Source of the DNA: Treponema sp.
GTDB lineage: Bacteria; Spirochaetota; Spirochaetia; Treponematales; Breznakiellaceae
NCBI GenBank assembly: GCA_031256445.1
Contig: JAIRQN010000054.1
Coordinates: forward strand, 1-55,598
DNA length: 55,598 nucleotides
Reading direction: 5' to 3'
Below the pieces are notes generated by a model. That model saw only the letters and a list, made by a program, of their open reading frames with translations, did not search any database and was not told the DNA's origin. The translations under genes were made by a program, and so were the position numbers. Below, piece after piece: positions 4,317 through 43,070 of the stretch. Every line of letters begins with the position of its first letter. The stretch's first letter is position 1.

Positions 4317-5654
4317 CTATTTCGGTTTTGCTATAATTTCCGCAAGGCCGGGGTTCTTCGCCAGCTCGGCTTTTAAACCTTCGGCGCGGCCCTTGTTTAC
4401 ATAGTCTTTGCTCTGGAAAGAATAGGTAAAGTGAGTATGCGTATCGTAATTTCCTTTCATCAGAGCGTAAGCGTCTTCTGTCATTACAAGTTCCTCATCT
4501 GTCGGGATAATGTAAACCGGTATTTTGGATTCAGGTTTGCTGATAATCGTTTCGGTATTTCTTGTATGCGACATCTCGTTCCTGCGGGGATCGTATACAA
4601 TGCCTATGCCGTCAAGGTTTTCCAGAATCTTGTTCCGCATGAACCACGCGAACTCGCCCACGCCCGCTGTAAAAACAAGAGCGTCCACTCTGCCAAGAAC
4701 GGCCTGATACGCTCCTATGTACTTTCTTACATGGTGGGCTTCGATGTACTGTGCGCGCAGCGCCGTCTTGTCTCCCGCGACCGCGGCGGCCTGAATGTCC
4801 CGCCTGTCCGTATGCTTGCCTGTCATTCCCAAAAGCCCGGCTTTTTTATTCAGGGCGCTTTCCACCTCAGCCGCGCTCATGCCTGTTTTGCGCATAATGT
4901 AGAAGGGCAGAGCCGGGTCTATGTCGCCGGATCGGGTTCCCATTATAAGCCCTTCAAGAGGAGTAATACCCATTGATGTGTCAAACGAGCAGCCGTCTTT
5001 TACCGCGTTCACAGACGCGCCGTTGCCGATGTGGCAGATAATCAAATTTGTTTTAAAAGGATCCTGCCCCAAAAGAACCGCGGCCCTTTTTGCCGTGTAA
5101 AGAAAACTGGTGCCGTGAAAACCGTAGCGGCGCACATGGTACTTTTCGTACCATTCAGACGGAACCGCGTACATATATGACTCAGGGGGCATTGTCTGAT
5201 GCCAGGCGGTGTCCATTGTAGCGCAGTGCGGCACATCGGGAAGCACTTTTTTCGCCGCTTCAATGCCCATGATATTTGCCGGATTGTGCAGAGGGCTCAT
5301 GTCCTGCATCTCGGCAAAAGCTTCCATTGCCGCGTTGTTTACAATAACGGACTTTGTGAATTTATCGCCGCCGTGCACAACGCGGTGGCCTACCGCCTTG
5401 ATTACCGACATGTCGCTGATTACGCCTGTGTCCTTGCTTGTCAGCGTTTTGATGATAAGGTTAATCGCGTCTGTGTGGGTTGGGCAGTCGTGTTCAAATA
5501 CGACTTCTTCCTTTCCTTTTGCCTTGTGTGTGATAAATGAACCGCCGATTGTTACTTTTTCAACTATGCCTACAGCCAGCACATCTTTGCTTTCCCAATC
5601 GTACACCTGATATTTCGCAGATGAAGATCCGCAATTCAATGTTAATATAATCAT
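4317..5654 (-). CDS. ackA: Acetate kinase
   Basis: Interconverts acetyl-phosphate + ADP and acetate + ATP; in an acetogen it is the substrate-level ATP step. The 445-residue length fits the family (about 400) with a slightly longer C-terminus. Motifs seen: N-terminal [16 protein letters not shown] nucleotide site, [10 protein letters not shown], the GFHGTSF segment, [22 protein letters not shown], and VFTAGVGE near the C-terminus. A GGCGG ribosome site precedes the ATG. No phosphotransacetylase gene is adjacent. Confidence 0.97.
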
Positions 5655-27359: not shown

Positions 27360-28016
27360 TCAGATCGGCAGCGCCAGGACTGAGACTCCGCACAGCAGAA
27401 TAGCGCTGCCGGCGAACGCGTGCGCGTATCTTTGCAGCCTGCTGAGTTTTATCAGCTCAAAACCCTTCAGGCCAAGCAGCGTCATTATCAGCATAACCGC
27501 GATTGTGCATACGGAAAAACTTACGGTAACAAGAACCAGGGTAAAGAAATCCATATTTGCCGCCGGATACATCAGAAGCGGAATTAGGGGTTCGCACGGC
27601 CCTAAAACAAAGAAAATAAAAAGCCCCCAGAATACGCTGCCTGACTTTTTTAAATGATGTTCCGCCTCATCATGTCCTGTATGCGTATGCGTTTTATTTC
27701 TTACCGCCGCGGAAATGCCGTAAACCGCGTAAATTAATCCAAAGGCAATCAGCGCATAAGCCGCGATTGTTCCGCGCTTGTCTTCGATGTCAATTAACGA
27801 TGTGACTCCGGCGGCAAGCGTTATGCCCGCAAAACCAAGAATCACTGACCCTAAAACATGACCGGTTCCGCATAACAGAACAACGCATATTGTTTTTTTT
27901 AATGACCAGCTGTTCGCCCTGCTTAATGCGATAAACGGCACATAATGATCAACTCCGATAACGGTATGGATAAGCGCGATTGACACCGCGGTGCCCAATA
28001 AAACCAGTGATTCCAT
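27360..28016 (-). CDS. NicO/UreH-like nickel (cobalt) permease
   Basis: 218 residues with six hydrophobic helices. The first holds HTVIGVDHYVPFIALSRANS and the second GTGHVLGSVILGF, the histidine pattern of the NicO/UreH/RcnA group. A His-rich loop (KTHTHTGHDEAEHH) lies mid-protein. Metal specificity cannot be read directly, but the neighbouring nickel enzymes (CODH/ACS, two CooC) make nickel the likely cargo. It overlaps no gene and follows the DUF3786-like gene by 5 bases, so the two are an operon. Confidence 0.75.
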   Translation of the reverse strand: MESLVLLGTAVSIALIHTVIGVDHYVPFIALSRANSWSLKKTICVVLLCGTGHVLGSVILGFAGITLAAGVTSLIDIEDKRGTIAAYALIAFGLIYAVYGISAAVRNKTHTHTGHDEAEHHLKKSGSVFWGLFIFFVLGPCEPLIPLLMYPAANMDFFTLVLVTVSFSVCTIAVMLIMTLLGLKGFELIKLSRLQRYAHAFAGSAILLCGVSVLALPI

Positions 28017-28665: not shown

Positions 28666-29553
28666 ATGGCAAGGCAAAAAATCACGGAAGCGTTAAAAAC
28701 AGGAAAAGTCCTGATTTCTGACGGCGCCTGGGGAACTTTTCTGCATAAAAAAGGATTAAAACCGGGCGAATGTCCGGAGTTATGGTGCATCGACAGGCCG
28801 TCTGATGTTTTGGATGTTGCGAAATGTTATATCGAAGCCGGGGCTGACATGGTTGAAACAGACAGTTTCGGAGGGAGCTGTTATAAGCTGGCTCATTACA
28901 AACTGGAGAACAGAACCGCGGAGATCAACGAAGCGGCCGCCAGAATTTCCCGCCAGGCAGCAGGAGATGATCACTGGGTTATCGCGTCTATCGGCCCGAC
29001 AGGCAAGATGCTGGTAACGGAAGAAGTAACTCAGTTTGAACTGTACGAAGCGTTTAAAACCCAGGCTGTCGCACTCGAAAAAGGCGGCGCTGACGCGGCT
29101 TGTATCGAGACAATGAGCGATATCGAAGAAGCCTGCGCGGCTGTTAAAGCAGTCAAAGAAAACACCAATCTGGAAATTATCTGCACATTTACCTTTGAAA
29201 AAACCCTGCAGGGTGAATACAGAACGATGATGGGCGTTGATCCTGTCTCCGCAATGAATGCCGTAATTGAAGCTGGCGCTGATATTGTCGGAGCGAATTG
29301 CGGCAACGGTATCGAAAGAATGATAGAGATCGTCAGCCAGATGCGCTGTGCGAATAAAGATATACCGATTCTTGTTCATGCCAACGCGGGTCTTCCCAAA
29401 AATGTAGACGGGCGTGTTGTGTTCCCGCAAACGCCGCAGGACATGGCCGCGCTTGCGCCTGAGCTCGCCGCTGCCGGGGCGAACATAATCGGCGGCTGCT
29501 GCGGAACAACGCCCGAGCATATAAAAGCCATTAAAGAATCAGTTATTAAATAA
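28666..29553 (+). CDS. Homocysteine S-methyltransferase-family protein (MetH N-module-like)
   Basis: A zinc-dependent methyltransferase barrel of 295 residues, equivalent to the homocysteine-binding module of MetH. Seen: SDGAWGTFLHKKGLKPGECP opening, ETDSFGGSCYKL, IASIGPTGKML, and zinc ligands in GANCGNG and GGCCGTTPEHI. There is no fused folate, B12 or SAM domain, so it needs a partner methyl donor. Strong GGAGG ribosome site. It is first in an operon with a MetE-like methyltransferase and CooC, which points to methyl transfer between a corrinoid protein (perhaps AcsC/D) and homocysteine; this is an inference. Confidence 0.88.
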   Translation: MARQKITEALKTGKVLISDGAWGTFLHKKGLKPGECPELWCIDRPSDVLDVAKCYIEAGADMVETDSFGGSCYKLAHYKLENRTAEINEAAARISRQAAGDDHWVIASIGPTGKMLVTEEVTQFELYEAFKTQAVALEKGGADAACIETMSDIEEACAAVKAVKENTNLEIICTFTFEKTLQGEYRTMMGVDPVSAMNAVIEAGADIVGANCGNGIERMIEIVSQMRCANKDIPILVHANAGLPKNVDGRVVFPQTPQDMAALAPELAAAGANIIGGCCGTTPEHIKAIKESVIK

Positions 29554-29579: not shown

Positions 29580-30644
29580 ATGGTTAAGACCAAATTTCTT
29601 TCTACGGCAATCGGGTCGATGCCTTTTGAAGACCCGGCTTACGCGGTCGGCGTTTCGCTAAAGTCGATGGATGCGCCAATCTGGCCTCAGCTTCCCAGAC
29701 TTGGTTTGCTGGAGCAGATGGAAGTACAGTATTCGGAAAATATTCCGTGCGCGGTAGTGGACACGGGAAAAAACCGCATGTTCTTTCAGACAGACGTTGA
29801 TTATTCGGAAAAATTCGCTGAGTTTTACGAAGCCTATATGACTGCTTCAGACGAAGGCGGTACAAATGATTTTTCTTCAATGGCGATAAGCGAAACATAT
29901 TCAAAGGGAATCTACTCGCTTCTGAATACGTTAAAAGAAAAAGGCGGAAAAAAACCCTGGATAAAAGTGCAGTCCACAGGTCCTGTCACTTTCGCGCTTT
30001 CCATCGTGGATGAAAACAAGCGCGCAATGTATTATAACGAAGAATTCCGCGATGTAATTGTCAAGGCGATTTCCATGAAGAGCCGCTGGCAGATACAGCA
30101 GTTTAAACCATATGCGGATAACATAATTTGTTTTATAGACGAACCGATTCTGTCGGCTTTCGGAAGTTCCACATATGTCTCGGTAAAGCGCGAAGATGTT
30201 GTCAGCATTTTAAATGAAGTAATCGAAGCAATTCACGCCGAAGGAGCAATCGCAGGCATTCACTGCTGCGGAAACACAGAGTGGAGCATTCTTGTTGACG
30301 CGGGCGTGGACATCGTAAACTTTGACGCTTTTGAATACGGCGAAACAATCGCGATTTACGCCGACAGCGTAAAGAAACACCTTGAAAGAGGCGGAACTCT
30401 CGCGTGGGGCGTAGTGCCCACATCCGAAAAGATCAGGGAGCAGACAGCCCAGTCTCTGGAAGAGCAGCTTGAAAAAGTCATGGACAATCTTGCCTCCAAA
30501 GGAATCGATAAAAATCTGATTGCTGAGCAGGCAATTATTACTCCTTCATGCGGAACAGGTTCGTTAGCCGCTGAAGACGCGGAAAAAGTTTTTTCGCTGA
30601 TGGCGGAGCTAACCAAACGAATGAAGAGTAAATATAATTTTTAA
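29580..30644 (+). CDS. MetE/UROD-superfamily methyltransferase (core methionine-synthase-like)
   Basis: 354 residues of the uroporphyrinogen-decarboxylase/MetE-C barrel fold. It begins FLSTAIGSMPFEDP, has QSTGPVTFALS and CFIDEPILSAFGSS, and carries zinc-type residues in GIHCCGN (His228, Cys230) and PSCGTGS (Cys324), as in the catalytic half of MetE. The N-terminal half of MetE is absent. Core MetE-like enzymes in some anaerobes are proposed to take methyl from corrinoid proteins rather than methyl-folate. Its place beside CODH/ACS genes fits that. An MtaA-like role is the alternative. Confidence 0.8.
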   Translation: MVKTKFLSTAIGSMPFEDPAYAVGVSLKSMDAPIWPQLPRLGLLEQMEVQYSENIPCAVVDTGKNRMFFQTDVDYSEKFAEFYEAYMTASDEGGTNDFSSMAISETYSKGIYSLLNTLKEKGGKKPWIKVQSTGPVTFALSIVDENKRAMYYNEEFRDVIVKAISMKSRWQIQQFKPYADNIICFIDEPILSAFGSSTYVSVKREDVVSILNEVIEAIHAEGAIAGIHCCGNTEWSILVDAGVDIVNFDAFEYGETIAIYADSVKKHLERGGTLAWGVVPTSEKIREQTAQSLEEQLEKVMDNLASKGIDKNLIAEQAIITPSCGTGSLAAEDAEKVFSLMAELTKRMKSKYNF

Positions 30645-31411
30645 TGAAGATAGCGGTTTCCGGCAAGGGCGGTGTCGGCAAGTCTACCATTGCCGCCGCT
30701 CTTGCTTTAACGCTCGCGCGAAAAGGACAGCGCGTGCTTGCGCTTGACGCAGACCCTGACGCCAATTTGGCGTGCGCTCTTGGAATACCTGGCACAGTTA
30801 AAATTTCTCCGGTCTCGGAAGAAATCGCGCTTATAGAAGAGCGAACAGGCGCAAAGATAGAACAATACGGTCAGGTGTTCAAATTAAATCCCGATGTAGG
30901 CGATGTAGCGGAAAAGCTGGCGTTTTCACATAACGGAGTTGAGCTTATTGTGCTTGGAGCCGTTAAAAGGGGCGGGGGCGGATGCGCCTGCCCGGAAAAT
31001 GTTTTTATAAAAGCCCTGGTGAACGATCTGGTTCTTTATAAAGACGAGACTTTAATTATGGATATGGAAGCGGGAATTGAACATCTGGGAAGGGCAACCG
31101 CGGCCGGAGTTGATGTGATGGCGATTGTTGTTGAACCCGGTCAGCGTTCACTTGACTGCGCGAAAACGGTTGTTAAAATGTCAAATGAAATTGGTTTAAA
31201 AAATTTTATTTTTATCGGAAATAAAATTACAGGCGAAGATGATAAGGGATTTATCAGTGAGGAGCTGGGAGTCAGGAGTGAGGAGCTGTTTTTTCTTTCG
31301 TATTCTGAACAAATCAGAAACAGTGACAGGGACGGAGTTTCAGCGCTGGATGGGATGAATGATGAAGAAATCAGTGTTATAAAGAAATTGATAGATGTGA
31401 TTATGGAGTGA
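30644..31411 (+). CDS. CooC/AcsF-type nickel-insertion ATPase, copy 1
   Basis: MinD-like P-loop ATPase of 255 residues that would load nickel into CODH or ACS. Deviant Walker A GKGGVGKST at 7-15, DADPDANLACALG, and a CxC nickel site at Cys114/Cys116 (GGGGCACPEN), then MDMEAGIEHLGRA. The start overlaps the preceding stop (TAATG), so it is translationally coupled to the MetE-like gene. Near the C-terminus a heptamer-derived insertion (EELGVRSEEL) is encoded. A second CooC lies 1.6 kb downstream. Confidence 0.92.
   Translation: MKIAVSGKGGVGKSTIAAALALTLARKGQRVLALDADPDANLACALGIPGTVKISPVSEEIALIEERTGAKIEQYGQVFKLNPDVGDVAEKLAFSHNGVELIVLGAVKRGGGGCACPENVFIKALVNDLVLYKDETLIMDMEAGIEHLGRATAAGVDVMAIVVEPGQRSLDCAKTVVKMSNEIGLKNFIFIGNKITGEDDKGFISEELGVRSEELFFLSYSEQIRNSDRDGVSALDGMNDEEISVIKKLIDVIME
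31257..31288. repeat. Heptamer-like repeat within cooC copy 1
   Basis: Degenerate 7-base tandem of the GGAGTGA/GGAGCTG/GGAGTCA kind, read in frame as SEELGVRSEELF. Similar heptanucleotide repeats are found scattered in many bacterial genomes; here one sits inside a conserved gene. Confidence 0.6.
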
Positions 31412-31584: not shown

Positions 31585-32931
31585 GTGACTAACCAATCAA
31601 AACTGAAGAAACAGCGTAATATCCTGTTTGCCCTCTTAATGACCCTGCTGCCGGCGGTATTGGCGGCAGCCCCTGTCGAAAAAGTATGGCACGACAGCGA
31701 GTGGGGCGTGTTGCGAATCGCAAACCGGGAACGGATGAAACAGGGGCTGCTTCCCATGTCCACGACACAGGCATTGCAGCAGGCAGCAGGCATACGGGCC
31801 AATGAACTTATCAAAACATTCGAGCATACCCGGCCGGATGGGAGAAGCGCTCTCACCGTTCTTAATGAATTTAAAATCTCCTATAATACTGCCGGCGAGA
31901 ACATCGCCAGCGGGCAATCCAGCCCTGCCAGCGTGATGCGCTCCTGGATGAACAGTCCGGGACATAAAGCCAACATTCTGAACAAGGCATTCAGCCATAT
32001 GAGCGTAGGGTATGTTTCAGTAAATACCGGTTATCAGCATTATTGGGTGCAGTTGTTCACAGGCGGTTGTCAAATCACGAATATTGCTGTGGGTTCTGTT
32101 GCAGATACGCCGGTTTTTAAACTGGGACAAGACATAGATGACCTGGACTTGGTTGTTGTATTAACCTGCAATCATATCAAAGCCTATATGCCTTTGATTG
32201 CAGAAATGTGCAAAGGGTACAATAAAAATAATACGGCAATACAGACTGTCACTGTCACATACGGCTCTTTGGTGACTACATTCTCTTTGTCATTAGAGCA
32301 GTTTGCAGAGCAGTCCGCTGAACCGCCAATCACGCCGGCCGCTGCGCCGCAAAACGTCACAGTTACTGTTCCCGCTGCTCCGCAAAACTTCACAGCCGCT
32401 CCCGGCAATCGTCAGGTTGCGCTGTCATGGGATGCCCCATCAAACAATGGCGGCAGCGTGATCACAGGCTATCAGGTATCAAGCAACAACGGTTCGACAT
32501 GGGTAACAGCTTCAAGTAACATAGGGCATACCTTCACCGGACTGACCAACAGCTCAAGCTATACCTTCATGGTTCGCGCCGTAAACAGCGCGGGCAACGG
32601 CGCGACAGCGGCAGTAACGGCAGCACCGCGAGTCGGAGACGCTGCGCCGCAAAACGCCGCTGTTCCATCTGCTCCGCAAAACTTTACGGCTGTCCCCGGC
32701 AATCGTCAGGTTACGCTGTCATGGGATGCCCCATCAAGCAATGGCGGTAATGCGATTACCGGCTATCAGGTATCGAACAACAACGGTTTCACCTGGGTAA
32801 CAGCTTCGGGCAGCACAAGGCATACCTTCACCGGACTGACCAACGGAACGAGTTATACCTTCAAGGTTCGAGCCGTCAACTGGACGGGTTTCGGCGCTGA
32901 ATCGGTTGTTACGGGCACGCCGCGAAACTGA
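31585..32931 (+). CDS. Secreted CAP-domain protein with two fibronectin type III repeats
   Basis: 448 residues starting at GTG 31585. A signal peptide (residues about 1-28, NILFALLMTLLPAVLAAAPV) is followed by a CAP/SCP domain at about 35-160 with HTRPDGRS, AGENIASGQSSPASVMRSWM and NSPGHKANIL. A Pro/Ala/Val linker leads to two FN3 modules (about 265-350 and 365-448) of nearly identical sequence (NRQVxLSWDAPSxNGG, HTFTGLTN). FN3 modules in anaerobes often mediate surface or polysaccharide contact. It splits the CODH maturation genes and has its own promoter; no metabolic link to them is seen. Confidence 0.9.
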   Translation: MTNQSKLKKQRNILFALLMTLLPAVLAAAPVEKVWHDSEWGVLRIANRERMKQGLLPMSTTQALQQAAGIRANELIKTFEHTRPDGRSALTVLNEFKISYNTAGENIASGQSSPASVMRSWMNSPGHKANILNKAFSHMSVGYVSVNTGYQHYWVQLFTGGCQITNIAVGSVADTPVFKLGQDIDDLDLVVVLTCNHIKAYMPLIAEMCKGYNKNNTAIQTVTVTYGSLVTTFSLSLEQFAEQSAEPPITPAAAPQNVTVTVPAAPQNFTAAPGNRQVALSWDAPSNNGGSVITGYQVSSNNGSTWVTASSNIGHTFTGLTNSSSYTFMVRAVNSAGNGATAAVTAAPRVGDAAPQNAAVPSAPQNFTAVPGNRQVTLSWDAPSSNGGNAITGYQVSNNNGFTWVTASGSTRHTFTGLTNGTSYTFKVRAVNWTGFGAESVVTGTPRN

Positions 32932-32995: not shown

Positions 32996-33736
32996 ATGAA
33001 CAAACTAATCGCTATAACAGGAAAAGGCGGCGTAGGCAAGACTACTGTAAGCGCGCTTTTAATTAAAAATCTGCTGGCTTCGGGAGTATCTCCGGTGCTT
33101 GCGATAGACGCCGACCCCAACAACTGTCTTGACGCGGCGTTAGGTGTAACTGTTGCCTGTACGGTCGGCAGGGCGCGGGAAGACGCGCGTTCTTCCGCCG
33201 GAGCGAACGCGAATATTTCCACCCGGGAACTTTTACGGTTAAAAATAGAGCAAGGGCTTGTTGAAGCCAGGGGGTTTGATCTTATCGCTATGGGAAGACC
33301 GGAAGGCGAAGGATGCTATTGTTACGCTAATAATATTTTAAAAGATATTATCGCCGAAATTTCTTCGTGTTACCCTTATGTGGTATTGGATAATGAGGCT
33401 GGGCTTGAAAATCTTTCCCGGCGTATAGTTCAAAAAGTAGATATGTTGGTTTTAGTTTCGGACTCTTCCAACGCCGGATTACAAACCTTAATTCGTCTTT
33501 TTGAACTTGCCGCCGAAATGAAAATGTCCTACGGTAAACTGGCGCTTGTAATCAACAGACAGCGCAGTGATACTCTTCCCGGCAGAATTAATGAGATACG
33601 GGCAAAAACCTCCGCGGACATCGTAATCGGCCTGCCTGACGATGAAGAAATCGCCGCTTTCGCGGAAAAGAACGGAAATTTTCTGGAGATTTCGGAAACA
33701 AACGCCGTCTATCAAAAAATCAGGGAGATTATTTAA
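32996..33736 (+). CDS. cooC: CooC/AcsF-type nickel-insertion ATPase, copy 2
   Basis: 246 residues: Walker A GKGGVGKTT, DADPNNCLDAALG, and the canonical CooC nickel motif GEGCYCYANN with Cys107/Cys109, then LDNEAGLENLSRR. It is a better match to classical CooC than copy 1 and lies closer to acsA. With two copies one may serve CODH and the other ACS, as CooC and AcsF do in some acetogens. No Shine-Dalgarno; a promoter abuts the ATG. Confidence 0.93.
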   Translation: MNKLIAITGKGGVGKTTVSALLIKNLLASGVSPVLAIDADPNNCLDAALGVTVACTVGRAREDARSSAGANANISTRELLRLKIEQGLVEARGFDLIAMGRPEGEGCYCYANNILKDIIAEISSCYPYVVLDNEAGLENLSRRIVQKVDMLVLVSDSSNAGLQTLIRLFELAAEMKMSYGKLALVINRQRSDTLPGRINEIRAKTSADIVIGLPDDEEIAAFAEKNGNFLEISETNAVYQKIREII

Positions 33737-33743
33737 AATAAAT

Positions 33744-34529
33744 ATGAATAATGAAATTTCCTCAGTAAAACAATATTCACTAATAAAAATATTGTTAATT
33801 TGGGTTTCCGCCGCGCTGCCGATTGGAATTTGCGGATGGATATTATCTCCTCTATTGCAAAAATATTTTAATAATTTGGGCATTGGCCGCATAACCGCCG
33901 TAACAATTGGATTAGTCTGGTTATTTGTATTAACATTAATTTTGTTAAAAAAAGAATATGGAAAACTGAATTTTTCCATAATAAAAAATGGTTTAATGTT
34001 AAAAAATCCAAAAATACCGGGAACTGATAAAACCAATAAATTATTATGGCTGTTAATAATTCCAATAATTTTTGTAACGGCGTTTTTTCAAATTTATATC
34101 ACTAAAATAATTATAGAATGGTGGACGGATTTAATTCCAATATTCAAAGAACCTTACATTTACAGTTTATCAGGTTTTATCGGTTCTGAAGAAGGAATAA
34201 ATGAAATTTCAGGATCGTGGTTTATTTTTATAATCTGGGTAATTTGCGCCGTTTTCAATACGTTTCTTGGCGAGGAATTTTTATTCAGGGGACTATTATT
34301 GCCAAGAATGAAAAAAGTGTTTAAAAATTTTGACTGGCTTGTTAACGGAATATTGTTTGGATTGTATCATACGCATCAGCCGTGGGGAATATTGGCTACA
34401 ATAATTTTATCATCAGTTATGTGGGCTTTAACGGCAAAAATATTCAAAAGCGCGTGGTTTGGCATAATTCCTCATTCAGCGCAAAGCATATATTTTAGCG
34501 TGGTAATTCTCGTATTGGTAATTAATTGA
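33744..34529 (+). CDS. CPBP-family intramembrane metalloprotease-like protein
   Basis: 261 residues with about seven hydrophobic helices. CPBP/Rce1-type motifs are LGEEFLFRGLLLPRM (EExxxR) and GLYHTHQP, with a third His region PHSAQSIYF. Members are proteases or immunity-type proteins; the substrate is unknown. The sequence is AT-richer than the surrounding CODH genes, and the gene sits between cooC and acsA, so it may be a later insertion. The shorter start at 33744 is used because the longer frame overlaps cooC. Confidence 0.82.
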   Translation: MNNEISSVKQYSLIKILLIWVSAALPIGICGWILSPLLQKYFNNLGIGRITAVTIGLVWLFVLTLILLKKEYGKLNFSIIKNGLMLKNPKIPGTDKTNKLLWLLIIPIIFVTAFFQIYITKIIIEWWTDLIPIFKEPYIYSLSGFIGSEEGINEISGSWFIFIIWVICAVFNTFLGEEFLFRGLLLPRMKKVFKNFDWLVNGILFGLYHTHQPWGILATIILSSVMWALTAKIFKSAWFGIIPHSAQSIYFSVVILVLVIN

Positions 34530-34573: not shown

Positions 34574-36511
34574 ATGGAGAACAAAGACATTCTTTCTAAA
34601 GTAAGCGACAACGCTTCGGCGCAGATGCTCGAAAAAAGCCGCGCAGACTGCGTGGAAACCTGCTTTGACCGCGCAGAAACTCAAAAAACCCAATGCGGCT
34701 TTGGAAAAAGCGGCGTTTGCTGCAAGGTCTGCCACATGGGGCCGTGCAGAATCACGCCAAAATCGCCGAAAGGTATATGCGGCGCGGATGCCGACACCAT
34801 CGTTGCCCGCAATTTCCTTCGCGAGGTCGCGGCTGGAACCAGCGCACACTCCGACCACGGCAGACACCTTGTTTTAAAACTTAAGCATGTCGCTGAGGGC
34901 AAGGCTGAGGGCTACTCGATAAAAGACGAAAGAACTCTTTTTTATACAGCCAAACTCTACGGCATCGAAACCGGGAACCGGGACGTAAACGCAATAGCTC
35001 TCGATCTGGCAAATCTTTTTTTAGGCGAGTTCACCTCTCAGGAAGAGACTTTAAAAACTGCCGCCCTCGCTCCAAAAAAGAGGCAGGGCATTTGGGAAGC
35101 AAAGAGCATTAAACCAGGCGGTATCGATCGCATGGTAGTTGAATCTCTTCACCGCACTTCCATCGGTGTAGATCACGATTATAAAAATCTTTTGATGCAC
35201 GCTTTTCGTACATCGCTTTCAAACGGCTGGGGCGGCTCGCGTGTCGCTTCGATTGTTTCTGACATTTTATTTGGAACTCCTTCGCCTGTTAAAAGCGCGG
35301 CAAACCTTGGCGTATTAAAACAAGAAACTGTAAACATATTGATCCACGGGCACGAGCCCGCTATTTCAGAAATTCTTACCGTCGCTGTGTCATCACCTGA
35401 TATTAAAGATTATGCGAAAGCGGCAGGCGCCGCAGGCATCACCCTTGCGGGCATTTGCTGTACCGCGAATGAAGTGCTCATGCGCCACGGCGTACCGCTT
35501 GCGGGTAACATGCTTCAGCAGGAACTTGCGATTGTTACAGGCGCTGTCGAAATGATGATTGTCGATGTTCAGTGCGTAATGCCTGGGCTCGTTGACGTTG
35601 CAAAAAGTTATCACACGGAAATTGTTTCAACAACGGACATGGCAAAAACAATAGGCGCTAAACACATTGTAGTAGGGGAGAGCAATCCTCTTGCCGCAGC
35701 AAAAGAAATTGTAAAACGAGCAATCGATAATTTTAAAAAGAGAGACAAGGCAAAAATAAAAATTCCAAAGGACAACGAGCAGTTAGTCGCTGGCTTCAGC
35801 GTGGATGCGATTAAATACATGCTTGGCGGAAAATACAGAGCGAGTTTTCGTCCGCTTAACGACGCGATAATTCAAAACAGAATTTTCGGCGTTGTTGGAA
35901 TTGTCGGGTGCAATAATCCAAAACAAAAAACCGATGAATATATAAATGTATTAACAGAGCAGCTAATCAAAAATAACATTCTTGTTTTGCAGACAGGCTG
36001 CGCGGCGATTTGTTCCGCGAAAGCGGGAAGGCTCACGCCGGAGACTGCGCTTAAAATGGCGGGCAGCGGGTTACGCGAAGTATGCGAAGCTGTTGGCATT
36101 CCGCCCATTCTGCACATGGGAAGCTGCGTAGACAACACAAGAATTTTAGAAGCAGCAACAGAAATTGTTAAAGAAGGCGGCTTGGGCGACGACCTTGGAT
36201 CGCTTCCGGCAGTTGGTGTTGCCGCCGAATGGATGAGCGAAAAAGCAATCTCGATTGGTTGTTACTTTGTCGCAAGCGGCGTTGACGTTTTCCTTGGGAA
36301 CCCGTTTTATACATCAGGCTCCGAAAACGTAAACAATTATTTGCACGGCGGCGCGACAGAAGATTTTAACGCGTGCTTCCATTACTACGACGATCCGTTG
36401 AAAGCCGCAGAGCGTATTATCGAAATTATTAGCAAAGCGCGCGATGCGCTTGGAATAAATAAAACGCAAGAACGAAAACTTTTCGATATGAAAGACAGGA
36501 GGGAATTGTAA
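34574..36511 (+). CDS. acsA: CO dehydrogenase catalytic subunit (AcsA/CooS)
   Basis: Nickel-iron CODH that reduces CO2 to CO for acetyl-CoA synthesis. 645 residues. Cluster D ligands Cys41 and Cys49; cluster B Cys50, Cys53, Cys58 and Cys69 (CGFGKSGVCCKVCHMGPCRI). C-cluster regions are all present: the HGHEP histidine, GICCTANE, DVQCVMPG, VGCNN, TGCAAICSAKAG and HMGSCVDNTR. It ends with a stop overlapping the acsB start (TAATG). No Shine-Dalgarno is seen; TATAAA lies nine bases before the ATG. Confidence 0.97.
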   Translation: MENKDILSKVSDNASAQMLEKSRADCVETCFDRAETQKTQCGFGKSGVCCKVCHMGPCRITPKSPKGICGADADTIVARNFLREVAAGTSAHSDHGRHLVLKLKHVAEGKAEGYSIKDERTLFYTAKLYGIETGNRDVNAIALDLANLFLGEFTSQEETLKTAALAPKKRQGIWEAKSIKPGGIDRMVVESLHRTSIGVDHDYKNLLMHAFRTSLSNGWGGSRVASIVSDILFGTPSPVKSAANLGVLKQETVNILIHGHEPAISEILTVAVSSPDIKDYAKAAGAAGITLAGICCTANEVLMRHGVPLAGNMLQQELAIVTGAVEMMIVDVQCVMPGLVDVAKSYHTEIVSTTDMAKTIGAKHIVVGESNPLAAAKEIVKRAIDNFKKRDKAKIKIPKDNEQLVAGFSVDAIKYMLGGKYRASFRPLNDAIIQNRIFGVVGIVGCNNPKQKTDEYINVLTEQLIKNNILVLQTGCAAICSAKAGRLTPETALKMAGSGLREVCEAVGIPPILHMGSCVDNTRILEAATEIVKEGGLGDDLGSLPAVGVAAEWMSEKAISIGCYFVASGVDVFLGNPFYTSGSENVNNYLHGGATEDFNACFHYYDDPLKAAERIIEIISKARDALGINKTQERKLFDMKDRREL

Positions 36512-39500
36512 TGTCAAAGCTAATCTGCACAAGCGCGATTGACGGAGCAGTCTCTTTTGTTAATCAGGCGCTGAATAAAGTTGACGAGGCGGTTAAACAA
36601 AAAGGACTAGACTGCGCAGTCGGTTTCCCAGATACAAATTATTTTTTGCCTGTAATTTATTCATTCACAGGCAAGCAAATGAAGACCCTTGCCGATTTAA
36701 AAGCGATTTTGGAAGAAGCAAAGGCTCTTTTACCGGCGCGTCCCGCAGAAAATATTTGGCTTCCATATCTTGGAAGCGCGCTTGACGCTGGCGTCGCCGC
36801 TCTTTTCGCCTGTGAGGTAATCGAAGCGTGCAAATATTTAATTGGTCCCAATCCTATTGACGGAATTTATCTGGGAGCCGCTAACGATGTAATCATGCGC
36901 GAGCGCGGCATTGAGTTCGTAGACGGAACCGCTCCCGGTTTCGCCGCGATTACCGGAGCCGCGCCCGATAACGCTACCGCTGTAAAAATCGCAAAAGAGC
37001 TGCAGCAAAAAAATCTTTATGTGTTCATGGGCGGCTGCACAAAGGGCGTTCAATTCGCGGATCAGCTTGCAGCTGAGGGCGTTCAGCTTGGCTGGGAAAC
37101 TCGCCTTGTTCCTTTTGGAAAAGATGTTTCTTCATTGATATACGCCTTAGGTTTTGCAAACCGAGCCGCGCTTTCCTTCGGCGGAGTTAAACCCGGCGAT
37201 TATGAAGCTAACTTAAAATATAATAAAAATAGAATCTTCGCCTTTGTTATCGCGTTAGGTGAAGTAACTCCCGATAAATACGCCGCGGCAGCCGGAGCGA
37301 TCAATTACGGCTTCCCTGTAATTTCTGACACAAACATTCCGGAAATTCTTCCGACAGGCGTTTGTACTTACGAGCATGTTGTCGCGAATGTTCCTCACGA
37401 TAAAATTGTAGAAAAGGCGCTGGAAGTACGCGGCTGCAAGATCAAAATTGTAGATGTGCCGATTCCTGTCGCTTATGGTCCCGCTTTTGAAGGTGAGAGA
37501 ATCCGCAAAGAAGATACTCATGCCGAGTTTGGCGGCAATAAAACATTGGCGTTTGAATTTGTAACAAGCGCGGAATACGATTCGATTAATGACGGCGAGA
37601 TCAATATAATCGGCCCGGACATTGACGCGATAGAAGCGGGCGGCAAACTTCCGCTCGGCATTTGGGTAGAAGTCGCAGGGCGCAAAATGCAGTCGGACTT
37701 TGAACCAATCCTTGAAAGGCAGATTCACCACCTTGTAAACGGCGCGGAAGGTATTTGGCACATGGGTCAGCGCGACATTGTATGGACGCGCGTTTCCAAA
37801 GCAGGTTTCGCGAAGGGTTTGCGCTTAAAACACTACGGAGAAATTTTGCACGCAAAACTGCTTGCCGATTACCCCGCGATAGTTGATAAAGTGCGCGTAA
37901 CGCTTGTTACAGATCAAACTGAAGTTGAAAAACGTCTTGAAATGGCGCGCAAGGTTTACGATGATCGTAACCGCCGCTTGGAAGCCATGACAGACGAATC
38001 TGTCGATACTTTTTATTCATGTTTGTTATGCCAAAGTTTCGCGCCTAACCATGTTTGCGTTATCACTCCTGAGCGCCTTGGTCTTTGCGGCGCTTACAAC
38101 TGGCTCGACGGCAAAGCCGCTTATGAAATTGACGAGACCGGTCCCAATCAGCCGCTCAAAAAAGGCGAGTGCCTGGACTCCGTAAAAGGAATTTGGACAG
38201 GCGTTAACGAATACGTTTATACAAACAGCCATAAATCAATCGACGCGTTCTGCGCCTATTCAATCATGGACAGACCAATGACAAGCTGCGGCTGCTTCGA
38301 AGTAATTTGCGCGTATGTGCCTGAGTGCAACGGCGTAATGGCAGTTAACCGTGAGTACCTCGGCGAAACGCCTATCGGAATGACATTCTCCACGCTGGCG
38401 GGCTCAGTCGGCGGCGGTCAGCAAACGCCGGGATTTTTCGGCTGCGGAAAAGTATTTTTAACAAGCCGCAAGTTCCTTTCAGCGGAAGGCGGTTTTGGAA
38501 GACTTGTCTGGATGCCCAAGGAGTTAAAAGATTTATTAAAGCCCGATCTTGAAAAACGCTTTAGTGAACAAAAATTGGACAGCTTCTTTGATAAAATCGC
38601 GGATGAAAATAACGCCATTGCAGCGGAAGACCTTAGAGCGTACATGGAAAAGGTGAGCCACCCTGCGCTAAAAATGGAAGATATGTCAAAGTTTGCGGTA
38701 AGCGGTGATGAGCAGAAAAAAGAAGTAAGCGCGGAGTCACATGGAGCCGCGCAGAGCAAAGACACCAAGACAGAAAGTGGTGAACAAAAAGCCGCCGCAA
38801 AACCTGAGTTAAGCGCGAAAGATCTTGCTTCCATTATTGAAAAGGTTAAACTTGATGTAACAAATGAAATCATCAATATATTAAGCGAGAGATTTCTTGG
38901 TCAATCAGTAAACTTGTTAAAAAGCGAAACAATTTCCGAAGTCGCTAAATCAAAACTTCATGACGTTTCCATGACGCCAAAAGTTTCCGCTTCCAAACGC
39001 GTATCCGAGATTCAAAGTTTCGCGCTTCCCGCGGAAAGCTCAAGCGGCGCTACTTATGCCGTAAAACTTGGAAGCGAAAAACGCGGTAAAACTTACACAA
39101 TCGGCGGAGCGAGCTGCATGCCGTTCCATTTCTGGGAAGGTAAGATGCCTAACAAGCCGCTGATCGCGATGGAAGTTTTTGACAGCATAAGCGAAAAATA
39201 CCCTGAAGTTTTGCGTAACATTTACGGAGATGTTTTAACAAAACCCACTGACATGGCAAAACTGTGCGTGTCAAAGTACGGGGCGGATTTAATCAGCGTT
39301 AAGCTCGACGGCATTCATCCTGAGCGCGATAACCGAAGCGCGGCGCAGAGTGTCGAACTTGTTAAGTCGATACTTGCCGCAGTTGATGTGCCGCTGATAA
39401 TTTCGGGTATAAACCATTATGAAAAAAATAACGAGGTGTTAAAAGCAATTGCGCAAGCATGCGAGGGAGAAAACCTCCTTTTCAATTTTGTTGAGCAGGA

Positions 39501-39978
39501 TAATTACAGAACTATCGCTGGAGCGGCGCTTGCATACGGTCACACCTTGGTTGCGCAGGCTCCAATCGATGTGAATATCAGCAAGCAGCTTAACATTTTA
39601 CTTACTAACATGGGCATTGCGCCTGATAAAATTATCATAGACCCGATGACAAGCACAATCGGTTACGGTATCGAGTACACATATTCTGTCATGGAGCGTA
39701 TTCGCCTAACGGGTCTTGGCGGAGACAATATGCTGTTAAGCCCCATGATTGTTTCTGTGGGGCAGGAGTGCGCTAAGATAAAAGAATTTAAAGCGAGCGA
39801 ATCAAACTTCCCCGACTGGGGCGATCTTGTAAAACGCGCGGCTTATTGGGAAGTATCGACAGCGGCTTCGCTTTTATACGCCGGAGCGGATATATTGATC
39901 ATGTATACGCCGGAAGCTGTGATGGCGGTTAAGAAAACCATAAATGATTTAATGAGCGGTAATGGGGAGGGTAGATAA
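36511..39978 (+). CDS. acsB: Acetyl-CoA synthase fused to corrinoid protein small subunit (AcsB-AcsD)
   Basis: A single 1155-residue frame. Residues 1 to about 727 are acetyl-CoA synthase. The A-cluster cysteines are at 504, 507, 516 and 526 (CLLCQSFAPNHVC, then ITPERLGLC), with the nickel-binding CGC about 593-595 (MTSCGCFEV); spacing matches the Moorella enzyme (506/509/518/528 and 595-597). Residues about 728-830 form a charged, Ala/Lys/Glu-rich linker with a helical stretch. Residues about 831-1155 are the corrinoid iron-sulfur protein small subunit (AcsD/CdhD): YTIGGASCMPFHFWEG, GADLISVKLDGIHPE, IIIDPMTSTIGYGIEY. These are normally separate genes. No internal stop or start-site signature is seen at the join. 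It would tether the methyl-carrier to the enzyme that accepts the methyl. Confidence 0.95.
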   Translation: MSKLICTSAIDGAVSFVNQALNKVDEAVKQKGLDCAVGFPDTNYFLPVIYSFTGKQMKTLADLKAILEEAKALLPARPAENIWLPYLGSALDAGVAALFACEVIEACKYLIGPNPIDGIYLGAANDVIMRERGIEFVDGTAPGFAAITGAAPDNATAVKIAKELQQKNLYVFMGGCTKGVQFADQLAAEGVQLGWETRLVPFGKDVSSLIYALGFANRAALSFGGVKPGDYEANLKYNKNRIFAFVIALGEVTPDKYAAAAGAINYGFPVISDTNIPEILPTGVCTYEHVVANVPHDKIVEKALEVRGCKIKIVDVPIPVAYGPAFEGERIRKEDTHAEFGGNKTLAFEFVTSAEYDSINDGEINIIGPDIDAIEAGGKLPLGIWVEVAGRKMQSDFEPILERQIHHLVNGAEGIWHMGQRDIVWTRVSKAGFAKGLRLKHYGEILHAKLLADYPAIVDKVRVTLVTDQTEVEKRLEMARKVYDDRNRRLEAMTDESVDTFYSCLLCQSFAPNHVCVITPERLGLCGAYNWLDGKAAYEIDETGPNQPLKKGECLDSVKGIWTGVNEYVYTNSHKSIDAFCAYSIMDRPMTSCGCFEVICAYVPECNGVMAVNREYLGETPIGMTFSTLAGSVGGGQQTPGFFGCGKVFLTSRKFLSAEGGFGRLVWMPKELKDLLKPDLEKRFSEQKLDSFFDKIADENNAIAAEDLRAYMEKVSHPALKMEDMSKFAVSGDEQKKEVSAESHGAAQSKDTKTESGEQKAAAKPELSAKDLASIIEKVKLDVTNEIINILSERFLGQSVNLLKSETISEVAKSKLHDVSMTPKVSASKRVSEIQSFALPAESSSGATYAVKLGSEKRGKTYTIGGASCMPFHFWEGKMPNKPLIAMEVFDSISEKYPEVLRNIYGDVLTKPTDMAKLCVSKYGADLISVKLDGIHPERDNRSAAQSVELVKSILAAVDVPLIISGINHYEKNNEVLKAIAQACEGENLLFNFVEQDNYRTIAGAALAYGHTLVAQAPIDVNISKQLNILLTNMGIAPDKIIIDPMTSTIGYGIEYTYSVMERIRLTGLGGDNMLLSPMIVSVGQECAKIKEFKASESNFPDWGDLVKRAAYWEVSTAASLLYAGADILIMYTPEAVMAVKKTINDLMSGNGEGR

Positions 39979-41313
39979 ATGGCGTTAAGCGGATTACAAA
40001 TTCAAAAACTCCTTCCCGGAACAAACTGCAAGGAGTGCGGTTCAAGCACCTGTATGGCTTTCGCGATGAAGCTCGCCGCGAAAAAGGCGATGCTCTCTGA
40101 GTGTCCTCATGCTTCAGACGAAGCAAAACAAACATTGGGCGCCGCGAGTGAGCCGCCGGTAAAGGGCGTAAAAATCGGCGCGGATGTTGTAAGCCCCATT
40201 GGCGAAGAAATCGTCATGTACCGGCACGAAAAAACATTTGTTAACAAACCTGTTATCGCTGTAAATCTGGATGAAGGCGCAGACCTCTCTCTCGCGGAAA
40301 AAATTCGCGCCTACCGTCCTGTGCGCGTAGGCGAAGAACTTTTTGTCGGCGCGATTGCGATTACGCAAAAGAGCGATTCTGAAGCCGGCGCGTTTTCTGA
40401 ATACTGCGCGAAGGTTTATGAAAAAACAAAACTGCCTTTAATAATTCGCGCGAAAGACTTGACTTCGCTTGATAAGGCTTCCGCCGCAGTTACCGGCTCT
40501 CACAGTATTCTTTGCGCTGTGAGTGAAGACATTGCAGATAAAGAAGCGGTAAAAATCGCGCAGCGTGATAATCAGGTATTGGCAATTACCGCTCCTGATG
40601 TTGACGGCATTTTTGGGCTGACAACAATGATAAAGGCAGGCGGTTTTAATGACCTTGTGATAGAGTTTCAAACACATTCGCTCTGCGAAACTTTCCAGAC
40701 AAATTCTATCGCAAGAAAAGCCGCGCTTAAAAATAATATAAAAGCGCTTGGTTACGCGTTCCTTCGTTTTATAAACACAGGAAACGCGATGGATGACACC
40801 ATAGCGGCTGTAACAGAAATAAACAAGTTTGGCGGAATAATTGTAATGCCGTCCTTTGATCCCGCGCAGCTTATCACACTTCTTGCGTTACGCCAAAATA
40901 TTTACACAGACCCGCAAAAGCCAATTCAGGTTGAGCCCAAACTTTACGCGATAGGCGAGCCGGATAAAAAATCACCTGTTTTTGTAACAACAAATTTCTC
41001 GCTTACATACTTTTTAGTTTCCGGCGAAATCGAAAACGCTGGAATTTCCGCATGGCTAATTATTCCTGAATGTGAAGGCTTCAGCGTGCTTACGGCGTGG
41101 GCAGCAGGAAAGTTCTCCGGCGCGAGCATTGGAAAGTTTATAAAAGAAATTGAACTTGAAAAACAAGTGGATACACGCTCGATTGTAATTCCGGGTTATG
41201 TCGCGCAAATTTCAGGAGAGCTTGAAGAAAATCTTCCAGGCTTTAAAGTTTTGGTAGGACCCTCGGAAGCCGCAGATTTAGAAGGCTTTATTAAAAACGT
41301 TCTTAAAAAATGA
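39979..41313 (+). CDS. acsC: Corrinoid iron-sulfur protein large subunit (AcsC/CdhE)
   Basis: 444 residues. The N-terminal [4Fe-4S] motif is Cys17, Cys20, Cys25 and Cys42 (PGTNCKECGSSTCMAFAMKL). It is followed by a TIM-barrel and a C-terminal corrinoid-binding domain (GYVAQISGELEENLPGFKVL). With the AcsD half of the preceding fusion it carries methyl-Co(III) to the A-cluster. It starts immediately after the fusion's stop, with GGGAGGGT upstream, and overlaps acsV by four bases. Confidence 0.96.
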   Translation: MALSGLQIQKLLPGTNCKECGSSTCMAFAMKLAAKKAMLSECPHASDEAKQTLGAASEPPVKGVKIGADVVSPIGEEIVMYRHEKTFVNKPVIAVNLDEGADLSLAEKIRAYRPVRVGEELFVGAIAITQKSDSEAGAFSEYCAKVYEKTKLPLIIRAKDLTSLDKASAAVTGSHSILCAVSEDIADKEAVKIAQRDNQVLAITAPDVDGIFGLTTMIKAGGFNDLVIEFQTHSLCETFQTNSIARKAALKNNIKALGYAFLRFINTGNAMDDTIAAVTEINKFGGIIVMPSFDPAQLITLLALRQNIYTDPQKPIQVEPKLYAIGEPDKKSPVFVTTNFSLTYFLVSGEIENAGISAWLIIPECEGFSVLTAWAAGKFSGASIGKFIKEIELEKQVDTRSIVIPGYVAQISGELEENLPGFKVLVGPSEAADLEGFIKNVLKK

Positions 41314-43070
41314 TTAAAGTTACATTTTTGCCTGCAAACATTACCGTAGAAAGCACCGAAGGTTCATCACTCTTGGAGGCGGCGCGCGCGGCAGGCGTGT
41401 ATGTTGAGACTCCTTGCGGCGGCAAAGGAACATGCCAAAAATGCGAAGTAAAAATAATTGCCGTCGATAACGAAAAAAAGAAAACAGTTTTAATTTGCCA
41501 AACAAAAGTTCCAAATCATCCTATTACTGTTGAATTGCAAAAGTCTGCCGACGCTAAAGGTCAGTTTGAAAATTTTGAAGACCCAACTAAATATTTAAGT
41601 GAAGATAAAACACAATTTCTAAAAAAAATAAATCTTAGCGTCGCGCCTGCCGCGCTGCTTGACGGTTTATCAGATGCCGACAGATTTACAAAAGCTTTTT
41701 TAAAAGCAGTAGATTGTCAGTCTGTTGATATTCCGCTTAATGTGTTGGTAGCTTTGCCTGAAAAACTACGCGAAAACAATGGCGAAATAACTGCATATTA
41801 TTATTTAGATAACAACATTGCTTTTTGTGTATCTATTATTTCTTATTCCTCATTCGGCATTGCTGTAGACATAGGCACTACAACCGTTGCTCTCTGGCTG
41901 GTAGATTTAGAAACCAGAAAAGTTCTCGCCTCACATAACGCATACAATAGCCAGGTAGAATGCGGGCTAGACGTAATCAGCCGAATCAATTACGCAAAAA
42001 AAAATCTCGGCGAGTTAAAGAATCGAATTTTAAAAACAATAAATGAATTAATCGCCTCTGTCTGCAAAGACGCACAAATAGAATCTAATAAAATTTTATG
42101 CGTCTCGCTTGCCGGTAATACAACAATGACACATTTGCTTTTGGGAATTAATCCCGAATATATTCGTCTTTCTCCGTATACGCCGGTGGTTTTTCAGCCG
42201 CAAATTTATTCTGCGGCGCAAATTGGAATTTCTGTTTGTGAAAACGCTCCTGTGTTAATCGCGCCGGCAGTTGGAAGTTATGTCGGCGGAGATATTACAT
42301 CAGGGCTGCTTTGTACAGAGCTTGCGAATAAACCTACTGAATTAATTTTATTTATCGACATCGGCACTAACGGAGAAATTGTTCTTGGAAATAACGATTT
42401 TATTTTTGCCTGCGCTTGCTCCGCAGGTCCCGCGTTTGAAGGCGGTGGAATCAAACACGGCGTTCGCGCGCAAACAGGAGCGATTGAACGTGTTGCAATA
42501 AATGAAGGGAAGCTGGAAGTTTACACAATCGGCGGCGCGCCGGCAATCGGTATTTGCGGATCGGGAATAATTTCTGCCATTGCCGAACTTTTTAAAAATG
42601 GAATAATCGATTCTGCCGGAAAATTTTCTGATGGAAACGGCGAATATATATTATGCAAAGGTTCGCAAGGTAAACCGGACATTACAATCAGCGAAACGGA
42701 CATTGAAAACTTTGTCAGGGCAAAGGGCGCTATTTTCTCCGCCTGTCAAACAATGCTGGACAGCGTTGGAATGTCTTTTAATGATGTTGGAAAAGTTTAT
42801 GTAGCGGGTGGTTTTGGAAGGTTTCTCGATCTTGATGACGCAAGAGTTGTCGGTCTTTTACCCCGTGTTGCGAACGACAAATATTTGTTCCTTGGAAACT
42901 CTTCGGTTATAGGGGCGTATCTTACGCTTGTATCCGAAGAACATCGAAACAAAGAGCAGGATCTTGCCAGAAAAATTACATACATGGATTTAAGTAATGA
43001 GCCAAAATATATGTATCATTATACAGGCGCGTTATTTTTGCCGCATACCGACAAAGAACTGTTTGAATAG
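41310..43070 (+). CDS. acsV: Corrinoid protein reductive activator (AcsV-like)
   Basis: 586 residues. An N-terminal plant-type [2Fe-2S] ferredoxin domain has Cys36, Cys42, Cys45 and Cys63 (TPCGGKGTCQKCEV). It joins an ASKHA-fold ATPase (IAVDIGTTTVALWLVDLE, FIDIGTNGEIVLG, YVAGGFGRFLDLDDAR). Such proteins use ATP to drive electrons into Co(II) corrinoid that has become oxidised. It overlaps acsC (ATGA) and is the last gene of the acs operon. Confidence 0.94.
   Translation: MIKVTFLPANITVESTEGSSLLEAARAAGVYVETPCGGKGTCQKCEVKIIAVDNEKKKTVLICQTKVPNHPITVELQKSADAKGQFENFEDPTKYLSEDKTQFLKKINLSVAPAALLDGLSDADRFTKAFLKAVDCQSVDIPLNVLVALPEKLRENNGEITAYYYLDNNIAFCVSIISYSSFGIAVDIGTTTVALWLVDLETRKVLASHNAYNSQVECGLDVISRINYAKKNLGELKNRILKTINELIASVCKDAQIESNKILCVSLAGNTTMTHLLLGINPEYIRLSPYTPVVFQPQIYSAAQIGISVCENAPVLIAPAVGSYVGGDITSGLLCTELANKPTELILFIDIGTNGEIVLGNNDFIFACACSAGPAFEGGGIKHGVRAQTGAIERVAINEGKLEVYTIGGAPAIGICGSGIISAIAELFKNGIIDSAGKFSDGNGEYILCKGSQGKPDITISETDIENFVRAKGAIFSACQTMLDSVGMSFNDVGKVYVAGGFGRFLDLDDARVVGLLPRVANDKYLFLGNSSVIGAYLTLVSEEHRNKEQDLARKITYMDLSNEPKYMYHYTGALFLPHTDKELFE

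Follow-up and report, generated by a model that had tools for sequence, protein, structure and literature searches.

The central feature of this window, by which we mean the whole stretch of 55,598 nucleotides of Treponema sp. DNA that was analysed, is a gene, acsBD, whose product is an acetyl-CoA synthase (AcsB) covalently joined to AcsD, the small subunit of the corrinoid iron-sulfur protein (CoFeSP), with both domains complete and the ligands intact. It occupies positions 36511..39978 (+ strand) as a single open frame of 1155 codons (1155 aa), the window contains no N, and full-length relatives were recovered in 85 extracted frames.

Domains and linker of AcsBD

The AcsB part, residues 1-725 (36511..38685, +), includes an N-terminal CODH-binding domain and scores 1043 bits against NF040764 (cutoff 800), with further matches to PF18537, PF03598 and PF19436 and to ACS chains in a PDB sequence search (E<1e-200). 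Its A-cluster ligand region (38020..38295, +) holds C504-C507-C516-C526 and C593-G-C595, and these six cysteines are invariant in an alignment of 75 fused homologues; acetyl-CoA synthase activity with a Ni-Ni-4Fe4S cluster is a prediction. The AcsD part, residues 839-1148 (39025..39954, +), scores 377 bits against NF003376 (cutoff 280) and matches the CoFeSP small subunit 4djd_D with an E of 1.4e-85 in the PDB sequence search. Furthermore, in an AlphaFold2 model, which has low-confidence patches in the AcsB part and of which the AcsD part was used for fold comparison, the latter adopts a TIM-barrel fold with Foldseek TM values of 0.94-0.95 to 4djd_D and 2h9a_B. The AcsD part reaches only 266 bits against the NCBIfam WLP_AcsD exception model NF040759 (cutoff 430), but this leaves its membership of the AcsD family standing, as the exception model covers just part of that family. 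The first-pass annotation had described one uninterrupted frame holding a complete AcsB, with its A-cluster cysteine motifs, and a complete AcsD, covalently linked while AcsC remains separate, and all of this is confirmed by the separate family and PDB matches of the two parts, by the invariance of the cysteines and by the fact that acsC, encoding the large CoFeSP subunit with its Fe-S domain (PRK04165, 463 bits; PF04060), is a gene of its own at 39979..41313 (+), directly following acsBD.

The two parts are connected by a low-complexity linker of about 113 residues (residues about 726-838; 38686..39024, +), the length of which varies from 61 to 189 aa with a median of 121 among the 85 fused frames. 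The linker flanks are poorly conserved (0.22-0.28 in the 75 aligned fused sequences) and rich in Ala, Glu, Pro and Thr, while the centre is better conserved (0.50 over residues 776-800) and has the consensus ieqlKeqilaeiteElKaslTkEIVrdIIgtLSeKFLGe. In the AlphaFold2 model residues 729-770 and 795-821 have pLDDT values below 50 and are predicted to be disordered arms, and between them DSSP assigns a helix at residues about 769-795 (38815..38895, +), albeit in a region of low confidence with pLDDT about 45-58. Three fused sequences (L064, L066 and L106) have no such helix and several more have a degenerate one, so that the fusion does not depend on it; that it might be amphipathic was considered and rejected, since its hydrophobic moment is no greater than in shuffles. 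The linker had been described beforehand as charged and roughly 100 residues long; simply charged it is not, in view of its composition and conserved predicted helix. The model supports a linker that would be flexible and long enough to serve as a tether, and by analogy the arrangement may resemble the flexible arms of 2-oxoacid dehydrogenases.

Because the assembly is a draft, the fusion could in principle be an artefact of a missed stop, a frameshift or a misassembly in the linker. However, the fused frame recurs uninterrupted 85 times in many independent assemblies (75 distinct sequences), and the linker itself contains a conserved motif; this rules out the missing stop or frameshift that the first-pass annotation had raised against its own reading; we accordingly reject an artefact as extremely improbable.

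Distribution and origin of the fusion

When the family was searched, the fused form turned up in the source genome and in five others at 83-90% identity, so that the occurrence of the fusion in further Treponema genomes, which the first-pass annotation had suggested looking for, is established, whereas most other matching genomes in this search have an unfused AcsB of 41-47% identity. Scanning contigs from one genome per species gave 80 loci, all of them fused where the contig was long enough to tell, although the fused protein served as query and the scan is thus biased toward fused relatives. A few of the 85 frames extracted represent the same genome fetched twice, and 75 distinct sequences were aligned. 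The fused records carry the labels of about 15 phyla, most of these labels being those of metagenome bins, and comprise Spirochaetes, Bacillota/Clostridia, Lentisphaerae, Synergistaceae, Actinomycetes/Coriobacteriia, Planctomycetes, Fibrobacteres/Chitinivibrionales, KSB1, Aminicenantes, Acidobacteria, Ignavibacteriae, Verrucomicrobia, Syntrophaceae, other Deltaproteobacteria, SAR324 and Oligoflexia. When 398 genomes were sampled evenly from Bacillota, the phylum of locus L091, only the genome of L091 itself proved to be fused. The fusion is hence widespread, yet uncommon in the Bacillota sample.

In quick maximum-likelihood trees, which carry SH-aLRT support only and gave long-branch warnings, the fused AcsB sequences form one clade (SH-aLRT 100) and so do the fused AcsD sequences (SH-aLRT 98). 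The Treponema fused copies nest among gut Bacillota, with a gut Clostridiales sequence next to them, an indication of horizontal acquisition, and the trees are most simply explained by a single fusion event and subsequent horizontal transfer. The earlier suggestion of a lineage-specific form does not hold: a Treponema-specific form is rejected given the many labelled phyla, the single origin in the trees and the likely horizontal acquisition. The contrast in GC content between the operon (0.455) and the rest (0.440) is small and was discarded as a sign of recent transfer.

The acs operon and the methyl branch

The operon runs in the order homocysteine methyltransferase, core-MetE-like protein, CooC, inserted gene, CooC, inserted gene, AcsA, AcsBD, AcsC and RACo. 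The CO dehydrogenase gene acsA/cooS (34574..36511, +; TIGR01702, 614 bits) overlaps acsBD, its stop and the acsBD start sharing a TAATG junction, and downstream of acsC lies a corrinoid activator of the RACo/AcsV type (41310..43070, +; PF14574, PF17651, NF040756). The two CooC-type ATPases (30644..31411 and 32996..33736, both +) match P-loop ATPase families and occupy positions that are conserved in fused operons. A homocysteine S-methyltransferase domain protein of the MetH/BHMT type (28666..29553, +; PF02574, 234 bits) has T. maritima MetH as its closest solved relative, and its gene occurs in 29 of the 48 fused loci with at least 8 kb of upstream sequence. Two genes are inserted into the otherwise conserved operon, one (31585-32931, +) with CAP-like and fibronectin-like stretches as judged by eye and one (33642-34529, +) for a CAAX protease (PF02517). 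Divergent from the operon, a gene at 27360-28016 (-) encodes a small membrane protein with a His-rich loop, which resembles a nickel transporter by eye and has no Pfam match.

The core-MetE/MesB-like zinc methyltransferase (29580..30644, +; 354 aa) is present in 47 of the same 48 loci; the flanking DNA retrieved with the nearest unfused operons showed none. It has no Pfam family match, and its sequence profile found no match in the PDB; its identity was resolved through structure comparison, in which the model (pLDDT 91.5) gave a VIA Z of 24.6 to the C-terminal catalytic halves of MetE and to the stand-alone protein 3rpd, showing the MetE catalytic half without the folate-binding N-terminal half. 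H228, C230, D249 and C324 are invariant in 24 core-MetE-like sequences and form the zinc-ligand pattern HxC...D...C with a spacing very close to that of His215/Cys217/Asp236/Cys312, the published zinc ligands of Dehalococcoides mccartyi core-MetE (PMC7005905). Core-MetE/MesB proteins have been defined by a score of at least 173 bits to DET0516 (PMC7857596), and the present gene is likened to them by fold and ligand spacing. According to a proposal by Price et al., CoFeSP is the source of the methyl groups used by MesB proteins (PMC7857596).

As regards the remainder of the Wood-Ljungdahl pathway, the source genome is a draft of 97.7% completeness, and absence calls in all genomes compared here rest on drafts. 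FTHFS is present (PF01268, 885 bits, contig C61), whereas no AcsE above cutoff was found in this draft. Its single pterin-binding protein, a MetH-like Fol+B12 protein, scores 250 bits on the AcsE model (cutoff 259); the gene (L142:4451-6025) starts 33 bases from the end of the 6-kb contig C84 and may be a truncated MetH, and no matching homocysteine domain was found elsewhere in the source genome except that of the acs operon. There was likewise no match to MTHFR (MetF; PF02219) or to formate dehydrogenase/HDCR (TIGR01591), but since 6 of 18 unfused genomes also lack an MTHFR match and several unfused relatives lack one for formate dehydrogenase, these two absences are weak evidence. The term acetogenic complex used in the first-pass annotation is weakened for the Treponema source, FTHFS speaking for it, the undetected AcsE, MTHFR and formate dehydrogenase against it, as does an operon with core-MetE-like and homocysteine methyltransferase genes.

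Of 53 distinct fused genomes, 12 yielded a stand-alone AcsE-like gene, as against 17 of 18 unfused family genomes in the same search (Fisher 7e-8); within the family the gene was found in 0 of 4 fused and in 17 of 18 unfused genomes (p 7e-4). These p-values are descriptive, since species are not independent. Other termite treponemes with unfused acsB and acsD mostly have AcsE. Neither AcsE nor MTHFR was matched in 12 fused genomes (4 Treponema, 3 Oscillospiraceae, 4 Synergistaceae and 1 Clostridia), most of them probably gut-derived judging by their bin names. MTHFR is matched without a stand-alone AcsE in 29 fused genomes, many of which also have a MetH-type frame. With such genomes on one side and the few with AcsE on the other, the fused operon is tied to no single physiology.

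Possible functions and comparison with known systems

The tethering function, the direction of the reaction and the methyl partner and acceptor of AcsBD are inferred. The explanation we favour, to which we give moderate confidence, is that in this organism the AcsBD module moves methyl groups between acetyl-CoA and homocysteine independently of folate, AcsD being tethered to ACS. AcsC would bind the AcsD part and so complete CoFeSP, and a flexible arm, disordered in part and containing a short conserved helix, would keep the corrinoid close to the A-cluster. AcsBD would split acetyl-CoA, AcsA would oxidise the released CO to CO2, and homocysteine would receive the methyl group of CoFeSP through the core-MetE-like protein, the homocysteine methyltransferase encoded in the operon, or both, yielding methionine. 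The incomplete Wood-Ljungdahl route of D. mccartyi shares AcsB, the CoFeSP subunits, core-MetE and FTHFS, and likewise has no AcsE and no MetF that could be found (PMC7005905, PMC7857596), and labelling work cited in these two papers traces the methionine methyl group to acetate, C2 of acetyl-CoA being its source. It is this likeness in gene combination that favours acetyl-CoA cleavage and transfer from CoFeSP to homocysteine. Unlike in D. mccartyi, however, acsB and acsD are fused in Treponema, a CODH (AcsA) is present, and the core-MetE-like and homocysteine methyltransferase genes lie inside the acs operon. The completeness of the domains, the single fusion clade, the disordered linker, the near-constant core-MetE-like gene and the scarcity of AcsE all agree with methionine as the product, but in the 29 fused genomes with MTHFR and without a stand-alone AcsE, where MetH-type frames are frequent, methionine alone does not explain the operon. 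The 12 fused genomes with an AcsE-like gene furthermore argue against a folate-free reading, and in the source genome both the MetH-like Fol+B12 protein and a second corrinoid locus, as a potential methyl source, speak against the methionine reading. A more general proposal, that we are dealing with a distinct, horizontally spread CODH/ACS in which CoFeSP is a tethered swinging arm of ACS, the connection to folate has gone with the loss of AcsE and a core methionine synthase has been gained as partner, turning acetyl-CoA into a methionine methyl source in many phyla, is possible and is put forward tentatively.

An ordinary acetogenic CODH/ACS, fused to fix a 1:1 stoichiometry and with AcsE and MetF either divergent or lost in assembly gaps, seems rather unlikely. 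Three of the 12 AcsE-positive fused genomes (G204, G205 and G244) do have a strong AcsE, in G204 and G205 on the same contig as FTHFS and MTHFR, and the Fol+B12 protein of the source genome falls just below the AcsE cutoff, but AcsE was not found in 41 of the 53 fused genomes, some of them 94-99% complete, though it is found in nearly all unfused family genomes, and formate dehydrogenase is missing in the fused treponemes as well. The module might also run in the synthetic direction, with a donor methyl group passing by way of another corrinoid protein, such as that of the C97 locus, to CoFeSP, and AcsBD then forming acetyl-CoA with CO in a folate-independent methylotrophic acetogenesis. In keeping with this, 5 of the 6 AcsBD treponeme genomes searched have a corrinoid protein of 214-220 aa, those examined having an activator and/or a methyltransferase of the MtaA/CmuA or URO-D type nearby, and the window contains a likely acetate kinase by eye (4317-5654). 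Such corrinoid proteins are however also found in unfused relatives and do not track the fusion, no enzyme was recognised that joins them to CoFeSP, and methyl entry from methylamines or betaine through an MTTB-family methyltransferase is rejected for the treponemes, which have no PF06253 match; we regard the synthetic direction as unlikely. The locus in question, on contig C97 of the source genome G000 (L204:3413-8207), comprises genes for an MtaA/CmuA-type methyltransferase, a RACo-like activator, a 214-aa corrinoid protein and a DUF2284 protein, and similar gene sets occur in other fused treponemes.

The presence of CODH/ACS in a draft genome is often read as evidence of acetogenesis or of CO2 fixation. 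If the favoured explanation is true, such calls would not be safe in termite-gut spirochetes and in many bacteria of sediments, since the fused version is widespread, mostly occurs without the folate methyltransferase and is accompanied by a core methionine synthase, and the fused module may serve methionine synthesis rather than CO2 fixation. The ACS-CoFeSP complex is moreover transient and hard to capture, and AcsBD offers a ready-made tethered version for its study as well as a test of the proposal that methionine is made directly from acetyl-CoA through CoFeSP. In termite-gut spirochetes the pathway has recently been deduced from HDCR and CODH/ACS (PMC13067680), a conclusion for which, to judge by the present locus, CODH/ACS is not sufficient by itself.

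The AcsB proteins of Carboxydothermus, Moorella and Clostridium autoethanogenum share all domains, the A-cluster ligands and an operon with AcsA and CooC with the Treponema AcsB part, to which they are about 45-48% identical in structural alignment, but it differs from them in carrying AcsD at the C terminus. Conversely, the AcsD of 4djd and 2h9a has the same fold and length as that of Treponema, which is however not free but has ACS at its N terminus. In the open-access literature searched, no description of an acsB-acsD fusion was found, and the novelty of the fusion is provisional. The nearest unfused clade (G318, G421, G572, G294 and G550), with AcsB 57-61% identical, shares the order AcsA-AcsB-AcsC-RACo, but there it continues with CooC and a separate acsD, beside which several members have an AcsE-like gene, identified by eye from sequence. 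Finally, termite-gut relatives contain a second, divergent AcsB clade (L007-L012, L014, L016, L021, L027 and L029) with the order CooC-AcsB-RACo, whose retrieved flanks show neither AcsA nor AcsC nor AcsD, and some of the genomes with this clade also carry a canonical acs operon.
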